Below, piece after piece: positions 1,221-31,883 of a DNA stretch of 38,739 bases (positions are counted from its first letter, which is position 1; each line of letters starts with the position of its first letter). Under the pieces are notes generated by a model. The model was not told the origin of the DNA. It ran no database searches and was given only the letters and a program-made list of their open reading frames with translations. Position numbers and translations under genes: made by a program. The stretch is from positions 1 through 38,739 of the forward strand of contig JAQUQE010000015.1 in the NCBI GenBank assembly GCA_028716225.1, read 5' to 3'. Source of the stretch: Dehalococcoidales bacterium (GTDB lineage: Bacteria; Chloroflexota; Dehalococcoidia; Dehalococcoidales; UBA5760).

Positions 1221-3394
1221 ATGTCACCACCATCCTCGCTGGTAAGGTTGATAGTCAATGCACCCAAGACAGCAACCTGATTCTCTCCCGTCATGAAGTT
1301 ACCCCCAATAACTACACCTACAGGTCCAGTCATTGAAATATTGACATGGTGCAACCCCACAAGTGGTTCAATGGCCTTATACAGATCCGAGAGATACAAA
1401 GGCTGATTGAAGTCCCGCCCCTTCATCAACCGCTTGACCGTGGCCGCAATCTGCGATCTCAACTCGTCCGGCACATAACCAGACCGAACCATCGCGCTGA
1501 TCGTGATGCTTGCCGGAACGAGATTCAGAGAACCATCCACAACCTCTACAACCTGCGTCACCTCTTTGCGAGCATTCAAAAATGTCTGCAAAGCATCCAT
1601 CAATCCAATAGAAGGAGCCACGTAGTTCCCATCCAAATCCAACGCCAAAATCGGAACTTGAACGTAATTCGATAGACAGTCGTCCGAAAACAATTCAGAA
1701 ATCCTGAGTCTTATATCAGCTATAAGGCCCTCAACGCCCAACAACAAAGCCGCACTATCTCCGGTAAGCTGTGCAAGGTCAGCAGCTATCTGGTCAAGCA
1801 ACGCCGATATGGATTCGGCATCTGAAGACATAGACTGAATCGAGGTATCCATCGTACCCCCGGAATCCAGTGCTTCTACCAAGTCGTCAAGCGGAGCCGC
1901 CGCGCTATCAAGCGCCCCCTGGATAGTCAATACCCCCGTCTGTGCCTGTTGCGCCTCCGACAACGTAGAATTTGCCGCGACAAGAAGCGAATTCAAACGC
2001 CCAACTATCTCGCTTGGAGACAATCCTCCGTTCACGTCGTTTATCAACGTCTGAATCCCGTTCGTAACCACGGCTCCATTATTTGTAACCACTGACAATC
2101 TAGCATTTGCATCCACACTATAAGCGCGTGCAGATGCCACATGGTTTTGAGCCGCCGCCGCCCATCCATACATCTCCCCCCGCAACGTCTCGAGCCCGGT
2201 AAGCACCGACTGGATATTCACCAAGAACGCCTTCGCCGACGCCGCATCCGCATTCGTACTCGTTTCAATTGCCGCCGCGTCCGCCGCAAACACCGTAACA
2301 AGCGAATCGATCTGAGTCAGCAAGTCAGTGGTAACAATATCGTCATACGACGATTTGGGATTAATTGCATAGGCTTTGGCAACCGCACCGAAAGTAGGGT
2401 CCGAAAACGTATTCGACAGCGCCTCATAATCCGGTTGCGTAATCGCCGAATCCCTGGCCGCAAATACTTGCGGTGCCCACCTACGAGCCGAATCTGGGTC
2501 TTCCGGATTCGTTCCCCCGGATATGCGATCAGGGTTCGTAACAGTAAACGTCACCGGCTGCCCCGCGATAATCAGCTTGTCCACCGATGTCTTGATCGTG
2601 TCAGCAATCACGTTGCCCTTGTCGCCATCGATAATCAGATACCGAATCTTGATCTCGGCACCCACTGGAGGAAGAGCACCAGCAATGCCATCCCCGAACC
2701 GCACAATAGGCGGATTCTGCATATAGCTGATTTCGTATTGCGGAATCGCCTCGAACGTCAAAAAATCGACCTCCGGCCACAGCGAACCGTCTACCCAAAC
2801 TTCAACTTTCTGGTACGCCAAGTACCGTCCGGGGTCCACGCTCGCCAGCCTATACGTCTGGTTCTTCTCCCCGTTCGACGTGTAAGTGAGTATCCGAGAC
2901 TCACCCTGTCGCACCTCCACGTTCAGTATCCCGCCCGGAGCAATAGGCAGAGGCTGCGTAACTTTTGCATACGATTCGTAGAAGAGCCCATTCGGCCCCG
3001 AATACTTCCAGCGATCCTTCATCTCGAAACCGGTAGAAGTCCCCGTCGGGAAGGTCAGCGCAACCGGACCACTAGCGGGAGCGGCCGGTCGCATCTTATA
3101 CGTCAACTGCTCGACAAGCCGTTCTATCGCCGCGCTTGTCCGCGCCGTCGCCAGGAAACAATCACTCGCTGCCCTATCGAGATACCAGATCAGCGCCGCA
3201 TACGCCCATGCAACAAGATCCCGCAGCATGATGCCCTGCTGAACCGTCGCATAGTCGTTGTAGACAGTCCCGTATTCTACTTTCAAGCGACGCAGCAATT
3301 CGTCTGCCATGGACGTGAAGTCGCGAGCCGCAAACTTCACCTCATTCAACATCCGCCTATCTGGGACCAGCGGGGCATATGCGTCATCAACCAT
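1217..3394 (-). CDS. Baseplate wedge protein, J / gp6 type, with long helical insertion
   Basis: A 725-residue protein. The first 110 residues are helical, as in baseplate J/gp6 proteins. The hallmark beta-hairpin 'VRFGDGIAGALPPVG' lies near residues 225-240. The C-terminal ~120 residues ('LRSQIAATVKRLMKGRDF' then 'LYLSDLYKAIEPLVG') match the usual J C-terminal region. Members of this family join neighbouring wedges into the baseplate ring. Unusually, about 210 residues (roughly 355-565) between the two halves are Ala-rich and helical, which accounts for the large size. ATG at 3394 has a GGGAG-like ribosome site 8 nt upstream, and the preceding W-type gene ends at 3397. Confidence 0.88.
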   Translation of the reverse strand: MVDDAYAPLVPDRRMLNEVKFAARDFTSMADELLRRLKVEYGTVYNDYATVQQGIMLRDLVAWAYAALIWYLDRAASDCFLATARTSAAIERLVEQLTYKMRPAAPASGPVALTFPTGTSTGFEMKDRWKYSGPNGLFYESYAKVTQPLPIAPGGILNVEVRQGESRILTYTSNGEKNQTYRLASVDPGRYLAYQKVEVWVDGSLWPEVDFLTFEAIPQYEISYMQNPPIVRFGDGIAGALPPVGAEIKIRYLIIDGDKGNVIADTIKTSVDKLIIAGQPVTFTVTNPDRISGGTNPEDPDSARRWAPQVFAARDSAITQPDYEALSNTFSDPTFGAVAKAYAINPKSSYDDIVTTDLLTQIDSLVTVFAADAAAIETSTNADAASAKAFLVNIQSVLTGLETLRGEMYGWAAAAQNHVASARAYSVDANARLSVVTNNGAVVTNGIQTLINDVNGGLSPSEIVGRLNSLLVAANSTLSEAQQAQTGVLTIQGALDSAAAPLDDLVEALDSGGTMDTSIQSMSSDAESISALLDQIAADLAQLTGDSAALLLGVEGLIADIRLRISELFSDDCLSNYVQVPILALDLDGNYVAPSIGLMDALQTFLNARKEVTQVVEVVDGSLNLVPASITISAMVRSGYVPDELRSQIAATVKRLMKGRDFNQPLYLSDLYKAIEPLVGLHHVNISMTGPVGVVIGGNFMTGENQVAVLGALTINLTSEDGGDI

Positions 3395-3396
3395 TC

Positions 3397-3822
3397 TCAG
3401 ACTCCCTGCGTCGTCGGTGTAAGAATCACTTGCTGCTCCCGTGATTCACCACCAACGGTATACACGATGTCAAAAATGATTGACACCCCAATGCCATTTT
3501 CCAGTTTTTGAGACGATGGAGTAACGCTATTCACCCGCGTCCCTGGGATATATGTCTCTATTGCGTTCGCCACCAAATTAGCCAATCTCGCCTGCTGAAT
3601 CGGCGTCATGTTCTCGAACACAAACGAATAGATCGGCACGCCCAACGACGGCCTCATCACCCGCTCGCCCGGAGCCGTCATCAGCAACGCCACGATATTT
3701 ACATAGGTTTTATTCTGCGGCGACACCATCGCTGGCATACCCGTCGGTCCAAGCTGATACGGAAAAGCAAACGACTTTACAATCTGTTCATCTTCCGTCG
3801 ATGGCACCTTATTCAAAAACAT
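3397..3822 (-). CDS. Baseplate wedge protein, gp25 / W family
   Basis: A 141-residue protein, normal size for the GPW/gp25 family. Family features include the N-terminal 'SFAFPYQLGPTGMP' stretch, a helix ending in 'LLMTAPGERVMRPSLG', 'VFENMT' and a C-terminal beta-hairpin. The G(E/T)R-x-M-x-P-x-(L/F)G core is the family hallmark. T4 gp25 and P2 W nucleate the sheath at the baseplate. It sits directly before the J-like gene, the usual W-J order. ATG at 3822 has only a weak upstream AGG, so it may depend on coupling within the operon. Confidence 0.88.
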   Translation of the reverse strand: MFLNKVPSTEDEQIVKSFAFPYQLGPTGMPAMVSPQNKTYVNIVALLMTAPGERVMRPSLGVPIYSFVFENMTPIQQARLANLVANAIETYIPGTRVNSVTPSSQKLENGIGVSIIFDIVYTVGGESREQQVILTPTTQGV

Positions 3823-3860
3823 GATCTTAACCTATCATACACAAGCACTGACTCGCAATT

Positions 3861-4199
3861 TCAGTCCAATGGACATCGCGGTTTTACCCCAATACTCGGC
3901 ACACTCGGAAGTGCCGGAATCGAAAACGGCGCTGCAGGCACCGGTATCGCCAAGGAAACTTTCGGCTGCGTATACGTCACCCCCGGTATCTTACGGGGAA
4001 GTGTAGGAAGCCTTGGAATTGCCGGGAGTGAAAACGGTGGCTGCGGCACCGGTATCGCCAGCTTCGGCGAAGGAATGGACGGTCCTGGCACGCTAGGAAC
4101 GTCTGGTGCGTCTGGCAACGACGGAACACTGAACGGTGGCTGCGGCACCGGTATCGCCAATCCCGGAACCAACGGAGTAGGTATGTGACAGCGGCTCAT
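3861..4199 (-). CDS. Proline-rich triple-repeat protein, possible spike-tip component
   Basis: A 112-residue protein that is about one third proline. A unit 'LAIPVPxxPFSxPxLP' begins at residues 14, 47 and 83. Cys4-His5 lies near the N-terminus and Cys109 near the C-terminus, with no other Cys or His. I do not recognise a family. Its place between the spike and the W-type wedge gene is where tip (PAAR-like or metal-capped) proteins often occur, so a spike-associated role is possible, but the usual PAAR motif is absent. ATG at 4199 overlaps the stop of the HNH gene (ATGA). The repeats are also strong at DNA level (28-bp near-identical copies). Confidence 0.7.
   Translation of the reverse strand: MSRCHIPTPLVPGLAIPVPQPPFSVPSLPDAPDVPSVPGPSIPSPKLAIPVPQPPFSLPAIPRLPTLPRKIPGVTYTQPKVSLAIPVPAAPFSIPALPSVPSIGVKPRCPLD
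3925..4159 (-). repeat. Three 28-bp direct DNA repeats inside the proline-rich gene
   Basis: Copies lie at 3925-3952, 4033-4060 and 4132-4159. The last two are identical over 28 bp. The first differs at three positions near its left end. All share the core GGCACCGGTATCGCCA on the plus strand and encode the LAIPVP part of the repeat. Spacing is 108 and 99 bp, both multiples of three, so unit gain or loss would keep the frame. Confidence 0.9.
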
Positions 4200-4573
4200 C
4201 TTATCTTTCCATATACAGCATCTTTATGTGTCCACCCATATTTGATCCTAGATCTTATTTTCCAATAATTTTCACCCGTATATTCTACCCACTCTGAAAG
4301 AGTTTTACCAACGCCATCAATACAGAGGACAACATTGTTGCCTTTGTTTCTACCTTGTTGTTTTCGCGTAGCCCATCGGCAATTACACGGATCATAGTTT
4401 CCATTATTATCAATTCGATCTACTGAATAATGCAAACCAGGAGAAGGCCCCATGTCATTGTAAAAATTATCAAAACTATTCCAACGCTCACAAACCCTTA
4501 TGCCTCTACCGCCATACCTGTAAATAGTAAGCCTTCCGTATTTGTCTCCAGGTTTGATATCTATCCTACGCAT
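4196..4573 (-). CDS. Short HNH homing-endonuclease-like protein (internally deleted paralogue)
   Basis: A 125-residue, visibly AT-rich gene. The core 'GGRGIRVCERW', 'YSVDRIDNNGNYDPCNCRW' and 'LSEWVEYTGENYWKIRSR' blocks match a common phage HNH family and the second HNH gene at 30511-31137. Its N-terminus 'GDKYGRLTIYRY' joins directly to 'GGRGI'. The ~75-residue zinc-ribbon and helical segment present in the other copy is missing. The HNH core residues (His before DRIDN, then the NC pair) are kept, so catalysis is possible but DNA recognition may be altered. It lies between the spike and proline-rich genes; its ATG has AGGTG upstream and its stop overlaps the next start. Confidence 0.82.
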   Translation of the reverse strand: MRRIDIKPGDKYGRLTIYRYGGRGIRVCERWNSFDNFYNDMGPSPGLHYSVDRIDNNGNYDPCNCRWATRKQQGRNKGNNVVLCIDGVGKTLSEWVEYTGENYWKIRSRIKYGWTHKDAVYGKIR

Positions 4574-4586
4574 TGCATTAACACCT

Positions 4587-5540
4587 TTATGATATAAACA
4601 CCTTACTAGATAATTCCTTATACATCATTACCGGAGGAGTAGTGCCTGGAGTAGTTGGTGCACCAGGCGCTGATGTTGTATGTTGATGAGTCAGCCCCCA
4701 CCCAAGAGCAAAAGCATTTCCTTTTATGGCAGGTTCAGAAGCACCTTTACCTAAAAAAACTACTCCTGCACTGGCCGAGAATTGCTTGTTACAATCTGTC
4801 ACAACATTGTCCCCGGTCAGCACAATATCCTTGCCGTTGATCGCAATCGCACCCCCCGATTTGGTCATCAACGTCACCTTGTCCACACCCAAGAACAACA
4901 TCGACCCCACCTTTCCGTCCTTGTCTACCGTTTGCAAAGTCGTCTCGTCGTCCTCTGCATTCATGTACAAGGTCGATCCGTTCTTGTTCGTAATTTGCGT
5001 ATGCCCCTCTTTCGTAAATGAAATGAATTGCGGAGTCGGCTCGCCTTCACCGTCCCCGCGCACGATTGCGACCTCGAGCTTGTCCGGGTCATCGTTGAAA
5101 ACCAGATAATGCCCTGCCCTTGTGCGTATCCCGCGCTTCGTCGGACCCTTGTTCTCCATATCGTCCGACTGGAAAGTCTCACTCTTCTGTCGAGTCGTGA
5201 TCGTTCCCCCAATGTAGATAGGAAGTTGTGGATCGCCCCACTCAAACACGACCCATATAATCGATCCCTCTTCCGGCGGATGAAAAACTCCCGTTATCTG
5301 CCCGTCCGGAGTATCGCCCATGCCGTTCATCGAAGGTCTCATCCAAAAACCACCCGGAACATCCTCGGGATTTGGCATGTTGATCGCCGGACACGTCGCT
5401 CGAATCCTGTACCGCCCCTCCGGGTCTTTATTGTCAATCACCCGCGCTGGATAGGTTCCGTAAAAACGATTACAGAAACGCTCCAGCCCCCGCGTCACAT
5501 CGCCAAGGTAGTTCTTCAGCCATTCAAGCGGGGAAATCAT
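4587..5540 (-). CDS. Baseplate central spike, gpV / gp5 OB-fold type
   Basis: A 317-residue protein. Residues ~30-115 form an OB-like domain ('YPARVIDNKDPEGRYRIRAT', then 'GSIIWVVFEWGDPQLPIYIG'), as in gp5/gpV spikes that attach to the hub. Residues ~150-270 are repetitive beta sequence fitting a trimeric beta-helix. The C-terminus is Pro/Thr-rich ('HQHTTSAPGAPTTPGT'). No lysozyme domain is present, unlike T4 gp5. ATG at 5540 overlaps the hub stop. The last dozen codons are AT-rich like the neighbouring HNH gene, so the native 3' end may have been rewritten when that gene arrived (inference). Confidence 0.85.
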   Translation of the reverse strand: MISPLEWLKNYLGDVTRGLERFCNRFYGTYPARVIDNKDPEGRYRIRATCPAINMPNPEDVPGGFWMRPSMNGMGDTPDGQITGVFHPPEEGSIIWVVFEWGDPQLPIYIGGTITTRQKSETFQSDDMENKGPTKRGIRTRAGHYLVFNDDPDKLEVAIVRGDGEGEPTPQFISFTKEGHTQITNKNGSTLYMNAEDDETTLQTVDKDGKVGSMLFLGVDKVTLMTKSGGAIAINGKDIVLTGDNVVTDCNKQFSASAGVVFLGKGASEPAIKGNAFALGWGLTHQHTTSAPGAPTTPGTTPPVMMYKELSSKVFIS

Positions 5541-11106: not shown

Positions 11107-11136
11107 ACTGCAAAGGTAGCGCACTCAAGTGCGCGT
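11107..11136 (-). promoter_or_regulatory. Palindromic leader element, copy 1 (before tape measure)
   Basis: Thirty bases that recur at 24548-24577 with only the two central bases changed. The core is GCGCACTCAAGTGCGC, a perfect 7-bp inverted repeat around two bases. On the transcript, an outer GGTAGC/GCTACC pairing (11115-11120 with 11137-11142) can extend it. It fills the gap between the chaperone -1-frame stop (11138) and the tape measure ATG (11103). There is no downstream T-run, so it is not a terminator. A protein-binding site or translational control hairpin is inferred. Confidence 0.7.
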
Positions 11137-29629: not shown

Positions 29630-30496
29630 TCAGACGCTATATTTACGCCGCAACTCCATCAAGGTCGACATGTCAAAGACGGACTCTTCCTTGCCCGCGA
29701 TTTTGTTACGCATTGCCTCGGCAAGCGCCCTTCCGAGCGGCAGGTCAAGCCCTTCCAGTTCCGATCCGTCCCAGCACCGTCTGTTGTCACCCGCTTCTCG
29801 AGCCGCGCGTCCGCACGGATGGCTGGTAGAGCCGTATTTCCCTAAAATACCTTTGCCATCTGCCGTCTTTCCCTTGCCCGTGAATTTAAGCTTTGTCTTC
29901 GCTATCGCCCAGGAACCGCCCTTTTGGCCAGCAGCTTTTTTCACGCCAGCAAACTTTCCGTCCTTGTCATGAAACGGATTGCCCATGCCGGGTTTGCGTT
30001 TCGGAGCCCCCGCCACCTTGTTGTACGTTTCTGACAGCGACTTCGATAGATTGACGACCAGCGCCTCGAACGCCTCTTCGTCTTCCTCGTCTTCGAGAAC
30101 CAACTGATCCTCGTATACGAGGAGCGCCGCCTCTATGATCTCCGGCTTGGTCACGATGACATGCGGCATGAACGCCACCGAGTGCTGTCCCTCGATGTCC
30201 CGCAGCACCACCTCGCCGGGTTCGAGCAGCTTGGATTCGACGAAGAAGTAGTACATGTCCTCGGCATCTTCGTAATCCTCGAACCTGAAAATCAGTTCAG
30301 AATCGCTGTCCTTGCCCTGTATCGGCACCAAGGGATGACCGATATACTGGTTGTTGTAGGAAGAGACCGAATCTTGAACGCGCTCATCGATCCGCTTCAT
30401 GGCCTCCCGATAGTCGCGCACACCAATCGCCTTGCGATCCCCCTCGCTCAGAATCTCTTCCGTCTGTTGTTTGAATTTCTCAATGAGTTCTCTCAT
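29630..30496 (-). CDS. Unknown protein with KDGKFAG and GRAARxxG motifs, 288 aa
   Basis: An N-terminal helical, acidic part ('FEDYEDAEDMYYFFVESKLL', 'VLEDEEDEEAFEALVVNLSK') precedes a basic Gly/Lys-rich region: 'GMGNPFHDKDGKFAG', 'GSWAIAKTKLKFTGKGKTA', 'HPCGRAAREAGDNRRCWDGS'. The HDKDGKFAG / GRAAR-C pattern recalls short motifs repeated in phage structural proteins. GGAGGT precedes ATG 30496. Possibly a virion DNA-associated protein (inference). Confidence 0.66.
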   Translation of the reverse strand: MRELIEKFKQQTEEILSEGDRKAIGVRDYREAMKRIDERVQDSVSSYNNQYIGHPLVPIQGKDSDSELIFRFEDYEDAEDMYYFFVESKLLEPGEVVLRDIEGQHSVAFMPHVIVTKPEIIEAALLVYEDQLVLEDEEDEEAFEALVVNLSKSLSETYNKVAGAPKRKPGMGNPFHDKDGKFAGVKKAAGQKGGSWAIAKTKLKFTGKGKTADGKGILGKYGSTSHPCGRAAREAGDNRRCWDGSELEGLDLPLGRALAEAMRNKIAGKEESVFDMSTLMELRRKYSV

Positions 30497-30510
30497 CTTT
30501 TTACCTCCAG

Positions 30511-31137
30511 TTACCCGGTCATTATACTCGTAGGATGGTATGATTTTCCAAAAAGAGCCGACTCTTCAGTCCATCCTCTTGCCAGTCTACTATAGACCAT
30601 CTTATAATTTACACCAAGCTCTTCCACCCATTCAACAAGCGGTTTTGAAACCCCAGATATAGATATAATTCTGTTATTGCTTCTGTTTCTGTGCTGGACA
30701 ACCCATGTTGACCATTGACAATTTTCAGGACAATAATCACCATCGTTGTCTATTCTATCCAAAGTATGATTTCGACTCGGCCGCCTTCCCATGTCCTCAA
30801 AAAAGAAAGCAAAATCTTTCCACCGATCACATACCCCTATCCCTCTTCCTCCGTAGTGAATAAATTCAGGATGAGTAGGATATAAACATCTATATTTCAT
30901 ATTTTGCCAAATTTTGTATTCACTAGAACCACTCATGCCATGTGTAATTCTTCCTTTTCTATGTAAACATCCACAGCTTTTAGTGCATCCGTTTCTTAGG
31001 TTTTTTAATGATACAATTTTGGTATTCCCACAATCGCACTTGCAATACATCATTCTAAGACCATTGAGGTTTTCTGAATCTTGAATTACAACAAGATTTC
31101 CATAGCGATCCCCTCTTTTTACAATTAATCTAGTCAT
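30511..31137 (-). CDS. HNH homing endonuclease, full-length
   Basis: A 208-residue, AT-rich gene. N-terminal zinc ribbon 'CKCDCGNTKIVSLKNLRNGC' with a second pair 'SCGCLHR', then 'HGMSGSSEYKIWQNMKYRC', the HNH core 'YGGRGIGVCDRWKDF' and 'TLDRIDNDGDYCPENCQWST', then DNA-binding repeats ('LVEWVEELGVNYKMVYSRL'). The final residues HPTSIMTG are not part of the endonuclease family and resemble the HPTGILTG end of the upstream gene. ATG 31137 overlaps the neck-gene stop. The gene probably spreads by homing into the neck locus. Confidence 0.88.
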   Translation of the reverse strand: MTRLIVKRGDRYGNLVVIQDSENLNGLRMMYCKCDCGNTKIVSLKNLRNGCTKSCGCLHRKGRITHGMSGSSEYKIWQNMKYRCLYPTHPEFIHYGGRGIGVCDRWKDFAFFFEDMGRRPSRNHTLDRIDNDGDYCPENCQWSTWVVQHRNRSNNRIISISGVSKPLVEWVEELGVNYKMVYSRLARGWTEESALFGKSYHPTSIMTG

Positions 31138-31883
31138 CCTGTTAGAATTCCTGTCGGATGCGACATCTGGCGAACCTTTTCCTCGATGTTTAGCTCAATC
31201 GTTTCGGCATTAGCGTACATGGTATCGCCGTCCATCGAGAACGCCCCCGTCGCACTTGGTTTCTCAGGAAACTTCATCCTTATATTCGCCAGCGTTTTCA
31301 TTGCTTTCGCCAATGCGTATTGCCGAAACAAATTCCATTCGTAAGGCCGCAGGTAGTGGTAGTCGAAACATCTTGACATATAAACAACCATGACCCGCCT
31401 GGTATCGCTGTTCAACGGCGACAGGATCAACATCTGCCTCGAATGGTCCCACTCCCAATCCTTGTCTGCGCTTACTATAGCCTTGGCCGATTCTCGGTAC
31501 ATCATGTACTGGACAATACCGGAATACCCTCCGCGTCCCTCATACACGTACTGAAAAGGATTGATCTCCACATCGGCCCACCCAAACACATCGTGCAAAC
31601 CATCGCCCTGGGAATCAAAATATACATCTACCACGCTTCCAACATCAGGCCCAAGCAGATCCGCAGAATACTCAACGGTTCCAGGTTGCACCAAAAGCTC
31701 CACGGATCGCACGCGACCCACCCACTGCATCCAATATTCTTGCGCTTCCGTGATTGCATCTTCTAGCTGATCGTCAGACAGCTCTACGCCAACAACATCG
31801 CAGCCAAGCTTACGCAAAAGCCACTCTTTTAGCTTCACCGTAGCTCGGTCGTCACGCCAATCTCTACCGCAATTCACCGGCAT
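31134..31883 (-). CDS. Putative neck protein, gp13-like, 249 aa
   Basis: A 249-residue protein with an N-terminal 'VKLKEWLLRKLGCDVVGVEL', 'DDQLEDAITEAQEYWMQWVG', a beta centre and a C-terminal 'FRQYALAKAMKTLANIRMKF', then 'ATGAFSMDGDTMYANAETIE'. This YALAKA-K-LA-IR plan is typical of T4-like neck or connector proteins. The end 'SHPTGILTG' is repeated at the end of the HNH gene, suggesting the 3' end was rebuilt when the endonuclease gene inserted. GAGG precedes ATG 31883. Confidence 0.68.
   Translation of the reverse strand: MPVNCGRDWRDDRATVKLKEWLLRKLGCDVVGVELSDDQLEDAITEAQEYWMQWVGRVRSVELLVQPGTVEYSADLLGPDVGSVVDVYFDSQGDGLHDVFGWADVEINPFQYVYEGRGGYSGIVQYMMYRESAKAIVSADKDWEWDHSRQMLILSPLNSDTRRVMVVYMSRCFDYHYLRPYEWNLFRQYALAKAMKTLANIRMKFPEKPSATGAFSMDGDTMYANAETIELNIEEKVRQMSHPTGILTG

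Follow-up and report, generated by a model that had tools for sequence, protein, structure and literature searches.

Insertion of an HNH homing-type endonuclease gene into the 3′ end of a neck (head–tail adaptor) gene, bringing a substitute neck 3′ end and displacing the native end onto the HNH gene, is very likely the event recorded in the DNA described here. The window is the whole stretch analysed, 38,739 nt of contig JAQUQE010000015.1 from a Dehalococcoidales bacterium, to which all coordinates of its features refer (table 1). Two tails are present, one closing the neck gene and the other, downstream, closing the HNH gene; relatives are HNH-free at this site, and the same architecture is found at other genes.

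Table 1. Features of the window at and near its two HNH genes.
Feature	Coordinates	Strand	Basis
Neck (head–tail adaptor) gene, host of the insertion, 249 aa	31134..31883	−	PHROG 211, relatives, fold match
Substitute (probably imported) neck tail, HPTGILTG + TGA, AT-rich third positions	31134..31160	−	GC3
ATGA overlap of neck stop and HNH start	31134..31137	−	Same overlap in L096 and L098
HNH homing-type endonuclease gene, 208 aa, catalytic signature LDRIDNDGDYCPENCQW intact	30511..31137	−	PHROG 374
Displaced neck tail, HPTSIMTG + TAA, forming the 3′ end of the HNH gene	30511..30537	−	Next gene contiguous
GGAGG ribosome site of the next gene	30504..30508	−	Sequence
Next gene, directly 3′ of the neck gene in HNH-free relatives	29630..30496	−	Synteny; L001 ortholog 57% identical
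Second HNH gene, without a foreign tail	4196..4573	−	Lies in a native ATGA overlap; HNH-free relatives L384 and L386
Probable imported tail of the gene preceding the second HNH gene: last ~58 codons, AT-rich like the HNH gene	4587..4760	−	GC3

The neck gene ends CAT CCG ACA GGA ATT CTA ACA GGA TGA (HPTGILTG and stop; this end with its substitute tail is written as GGAATTCTAACAGGATGA), and coupled translation of the neck and HNH genes is inferred from sequence alone on the strength of their ATGA overlap. The HNH gene ends CAT CCT ACG AGT ATA ATG ACC GGG TAA, the C-terminus of its product reading ...ALFGKSY-HPTSIMTG, and is separated by 14 nt from the next gene, whose ATG lies at 30496. The two 27-nt ends agree at 17/27 positions in DNA (counted by hand) and at 6/8 in protein; because synonymous differences dominate, both must have been under selection as protein endings. 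A short repeat, CATCCNAC, is present at both junctions.

The neck gene was matched to PHROG 211 (head-tail adaptor Ad2) at E 3e-13, and its predicted fold matches T4 portal–neck complexes containing gp13/gp14 (Foldseek E 1e-9). The structure model is of moderate confidence (pLDDT 68), and the tail is predicted in it, at low confidence, as an extended peptide beyond the last helix. Adaptors only 20–24% identical still end in a similar short peptide (PLSFHIG, GPQFFIG), and the neck tail is considered constrained because this P..F.IG-like ending is kept; by inference, a neck gene missing these end codons would probably be impaired.

The window HNH protein was matched to PHROG 374 at E 2e-66, with a zinc ribbon and the HNH signature, and the residues invariant in an alignment of 18 relatives are kept. 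Members of the PHROG 374-type family end at, or a few residues past, an ALF/ALT motif, and the second HNH protein of the window ends ...AVYGKIR. Matches to Enterococcus phage HNH proteins that seemed to reach the tail (to residue 207 of the query) were rejected, these being longer proteins of about 320 aa. Among 263 unique HNH C-termini collected in a survey, the neck-like ending was absent from the 262 genes other than the window's own, the next best sharing 3/8 residues, and the BLOSUM score against the neck ending was 37 for the window HNH and 8 for the best of the others. Random draws of eight residues reach 6/8 identity with P about 5e-7, which together with the 263-member comparison rules out chance; the likeness of HPTSIMTG to HPTGILTG is real. 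An earlier note, made before any comparison, had described both endings, the ATGA overlap, the good ribosome site after the HNH gene, the neck identity of the host protein and the foreignness of the last HNH residues to their family, and all of these held.

HNH-free relatives were represented by five distinct loci (L001, L024/L039, L036, L037 and L040/L041), whose neck proteins are about 61–67% identical to that of the window. In all five the neck protein ends [RH]P[TVI]xI[FIM][TV][GD], L036 being without the final residue, and an ortholog of the 30496 gene follows directly after a spacer of a few tens of nucleotides. The HNH protein was not found in the records of these relatives, which are fragments, so that its absence is shown at this site only; at this fixed site, directly after the neck gene, HNH presence nevertheless varies. 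No further neck relatives were found in a genome contig search or in 400 genomes of the host's phylum. The earlier note had set out the prediction beforehand that HNH-free relatives would carry a neck gene followed directly by the 30496 gene, and this held in all five; its further expectation that their neck proteins would end exactly in HPTSIMTG failed on spelling, none of the five having that octapeptide, although the same motif is present. The case that it had named as refuting, HNH homologues elsewhere with the same ending, was not encountered among the 262 other HNH genes.

Protein comparison does not distinguish the native copy, the relatives being about equally close to both window tails. 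The HNH-borne tail adjoins the next gene, as the native tail does in relatives, and the present neck tail adjoins the HNH gene. GC3 is 0.11 in the present neck tail, where none of the last six sense codons ends in G or C, compared with 0.585 in the neck body, 0.29 in the HNH gene and 44% in the HNH-borne copy; the tail value rests on nine codons and is only suggestive when taken alone. From contiguity with the next gene together with GC3, the HNH-fused copy is probably the old tail and the present neck tail probably an import. The downstream spacer of the window lacks a palindrome that all HNH-free relatives have, from which further change at the right-hand junction is inferred.

This palindrome, CGAACTYRAGTTCG, occurs in intergenic regions of the relatives (L001 at 5756, 6651, 9024 and 10428; L024 at 3716; L036 at 4241; L037 at 4964; L041 at 4964), always including the interval between the neck gene and the next gene. 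A variant, CGCACTYRAGTGCG followed by CTACCTTTGCAGT, is found twice in the window, at 11120 and 24561. It may be an operator or a hairpin.

Polarity is plainest at the MazG gene of Acinetobacter Obolenskvirus phages, which provide a natural experiment. In AbP2, IME-AB2, WCHABP12 and RM_A2 no HNH gene lies directly after MazG, which ends ...KESDPxYA...NYxA (...VKSIEENYSA in AbP2) and is followed by the next gene. In YMC-13-01-C62 and Ab59 an HNH gene stands right after MazG, which there ends ...EYQKSINDRP (also given as ...ISDMTEIEREEYQKSINDRP), and the HNH proteins end ...GNLFIKESDPYYAALVKSIEENYSA (also given as ...FIKESDPYYAALVKSIEENYSA). Over its final 30 nt the YMC HNH gene agrees with the end of AbP2 mazG at 29/30 positions, and identity of 93% between the two phages continues into the next gene. 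The distal copy is the native one, and the MazG tail is different in the HNH-bearing phages; a native C-terminus closest to element-free relatives and a divergent substitute are both found here. The full-length substitute MazG tail was recovered in 11 Acinetobacter records, every one with an HNH gene at that place, and the remaining Acinetobacter records match only the first 30 residues. Distant MazG endings resembling the substitute occur in Salmonella phage SPAsTU and Staphylococcus phage vB_ScoM-YCP, and MazG 3′ ends may be a repeated HNH target in distant phages. In the Staphylococcus phage (L383, 1797–2226), a truncated ORF resembling an HNH zinc ribbon comes after MazG and overlaps it.

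Other host genes were surveyed by checking the end of each upstream gene against the sequence surrounding the 3′ terminus of its HNH gene. At score 60 the automatic count was 12 against 0.56 expected; this overstates the real cases, several hits having been discarded on inspection, and the Obolenskvirus case was missed and found only through comparison of related phages. Discarded were tandem HNH/AP2 repeats (L148, L151, L157 and L089), low-complexity GC-rich or antisense frames (L066, L337, L248, L211 and others) and L123, a whole-gene repeat and not a tail duplication, in which the HNH gene is flanked by two diverged copies of an entire small zinc-finger gene (2527–4100).

Among the cases retained, an ATP-dependent DNA ligase has its tail duplicated in L107 (GVMNKPRFARYICIRDIVDIVL before the HNH gene and GVKDAPRFARYICKRAVEDII after it), the displaced tail retaining the GVKD.PRF of HNH-free ligases. 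Tail duplications were also found at NinB (L091 and its relative L363), a Firmicute NinB-like gene (L139), a RuvC-like gene (L098), a small protein gene (L096), a small ORF (L360) and MazG of the E. coli phage vB_EcoM_APEC (L210). The HNH-borne end in L098, IAFVGAATQTFKQMLNQARAA, can be aligned with ISFAGASLQTFKMMQARAA, the end native to the HNH-free Synechococcus phage Yong-M2-251. A close phage relative of the L096 host protein was sought and not found, which leaves the native tail of that protein undetermined. Both L096 and L098 share the layout of the window, with an ATGA overlap at the start and the displaced tail fused in frame at the end; in-frame fusion is also seen in L210 and Obolenskvirus, and the displaced tail is out of frame with the HNH gene in L091, L107, L139 and L360. 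Because the HNH proteins of these cases are only about 31–43% identical among themselves, the cases are probably separate events. The majority of surveyed HNH genes have no recognisable tail duplication, and tail replacement is one mode among others.

Two further arrangements were observed. In L330 (2879–3794) a truncated 5′ copy of a small gene (MSRPDSPCIAVCTTLYDEKC) precedes the HNH gene, and the full gene, with a new start, overlaps the HNH 3′ end, a head substitution and so a mirror case. In Escherichia phage vB_EcoS_SA126VB (L371, 1492–2507) an HNH gene separates RNase H from DNA ligase; the C-terminus of RNase H is shorter than and different from that of CAjan, which has no HNH gene there, and a displaced copy is absent.

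Composition was compared over the last 15 codons of genes. Upstream of HNH genes, GC3 is shifted towards that of the HNH gene by 0.195 (s.e. 0.029, n = 29), compared with 0.091 (s.e. 0.008, n = 321) at control gene ends of the same loci (Mann–Whitney p 3e-4); the control shift is non-zero owing to AT-rich gene ends and regression to the mean, and only the excess counts. The window's second HNH gene occupies precisely the point where two genes natively overlap by ATGA, an overlap that it re-forms with the next gene. In the gene upstream of it, GC3 of the last ~58 codons is 0.10–0.33 against 0.45–0.75 in the gene body, and values at or below 0.30 were reached in only 1.8% of 271 control windows. 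No displaced tail copy is left at this site; the upstream gene nevertheless probably carries an imported tail.

Three rival explanations were considered. The one that survives best, though unlikely, is that the neck tail is native and that a tandem duplication, or a target-site repeat, produced a second copy of the 3′ end beyond the HNH gene, this distal copy being a passive remnant. The equal closeness of both tails to the relatives in protein and the repeat CATCCNAC at both junctions are in its favour. Against it, the agreement of 17/27 in DNA and 6/8 in protein indicates that both copies were long selected as real tails, the proximal copy has an HNH-like GC3, and in Obolenskvirus it is the distal and not the proximal copy that matches HNH-free relatives. 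Very unlikely is a second explanation, that HPTSIMTG serves the nuclease, for instance by docking the HNH protein on partners of the neck protein. The tail is indeed translated in frame at the HNH C-terminus, and such fusion recurs in L096, L210, L098 and Obolenskvirus, but the four out-of-frame cases make it look like a one-in-three accident of frame. A group I intron, intein or bypassing element removed before or during expression, to which only the position inside coding sequence points, is all but excluded, since no Rfam group I or II match (and so no catalytic core) was found in 30300–31400, almost all of the 623-bp insert is taken up by the HNH frame, its length is not divisible by three and the frames differ, which tells against an intein, and the neck gene already has its own stop before the HNH gene.

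Under the preferred reading, tail replacement, a free-standing HNH homing endonuclease gene would have entered within the last eight codons of the neck gene as a unit of ~623 bp, comprising a substitute neck 3′ end with its own stop, the ATGA overlap and the HNH frame. The native last codons would have been pushed downstream to become the 3′ end of the HNH frame, supplying its stop codon, much as the earlier note had proposed; this is supported, with polarity clearest in Obolenskvirus. By inference, and without cleavage data, the nuclease would cut its target gene at the 3′ end in a genome that lacks the unit, and repair from an HNH-bearing genome would copy the unit in, presumably by recombination within the body of the host gene and within the gene downstream. 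The recoded tail would keep the protein and destroy the cut site, thereby resisting cleavage, and the old tail would stay downstream as a fossil. Fusion of tail to HNH is probably incidental, because in-frame status varies between cases. Since the peptide encoded by the substitute tail is nearly the same, the neck protein remains whole, and to that extent the earlier note's claim of a self-repairing insertion sparing an essential gene is supported; the essentiality of the neck gene and its function with the new tail are inferred and not shown.

The same way of working, in a different lineage, is known from fungal mitochondrial mORFs with a foreign C-terminus, described for atp6 of Allomyces macrogynus and atp6, atp9, cox2 and nad3 of Glomus (PMC3630166). 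There too an endonuclease gene lies near the host 3′ end, a divergent substitute C-terminus is joined to the host gene and the native C-terminus is left downstream (directly after the mORF in Glomus atp9), giving the same three parts in the same order (PMC3630166). The mORFs are LAGLIDADG or GIY-YIG in mitochondria, whereas the window element is HNH (PHROG 374 type) in phage genomes; the window and phage cases differ further in ATGA coupling, an 8-codon tail and, in several, fusion of the native tail in frame to the nuclease. The closest phage report is ShiLan, an HNH element in actinobacteriophage methylases (PMC11855218). It is likewise a phage HNH element in coding sequence, its first 11 codons resembling the 11 host codons after the insertion, but it is internal and read through in the host frame, with no stop and no replaced tail (PMC11855218); an intron or intein was considered unsupported by its authors (PMC11855218). 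The seg/mob and mobE/mobA genes of T4-like phages are also intron-less phage homing genes beside or inside essential genes, but occupy intergenic sites or split a gene into two working polypeptides (PMC2988022). Substitute tails are not described in the relevant sections of PMC2988022, PMC10448857 and PMC12724721, and no paper reporting the arrangement in phages was found in the open-access literature searched, outside which most subscription papers lie. Tail replacement is already known for the fungal mORFs and, within the literature searched, is likely to be new for phage HNH genes.

In engineered cleave-and-rescue drives, the nuclease that attacks a vital gene is paired with a recoded rescue version of that gene. 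The window offers a natural parallel, with the difference that only the last codons of the gene are recoded and that target cleavage is unproven. A bolder reading, slightly less likely than not, is that phage HNH homing genes are a recurring class of natural cleave-and-rescue elements with nuclease-immune recoded ends, each HNH targeting the conserved 3′ end of a particular phage gene and the old end remaining as a fossil of the cut site.

Annotators and phylogeneticists should be aware that genes adjoining HNH genes can end in foreign codons. Where the insertion occurred is recorded by the displaced tail, which also hints at the nuclease target, so that the specificity of uncharacterised HNH proteins becomes directly testable. 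Carrying a spare part may often be how selfish genes get into vital genes, as seen here at several phage genes; if true, intron-less homing genes would have a way into vital genes that spares them the cost of breakage, which introns and inteins avoid through splicing.
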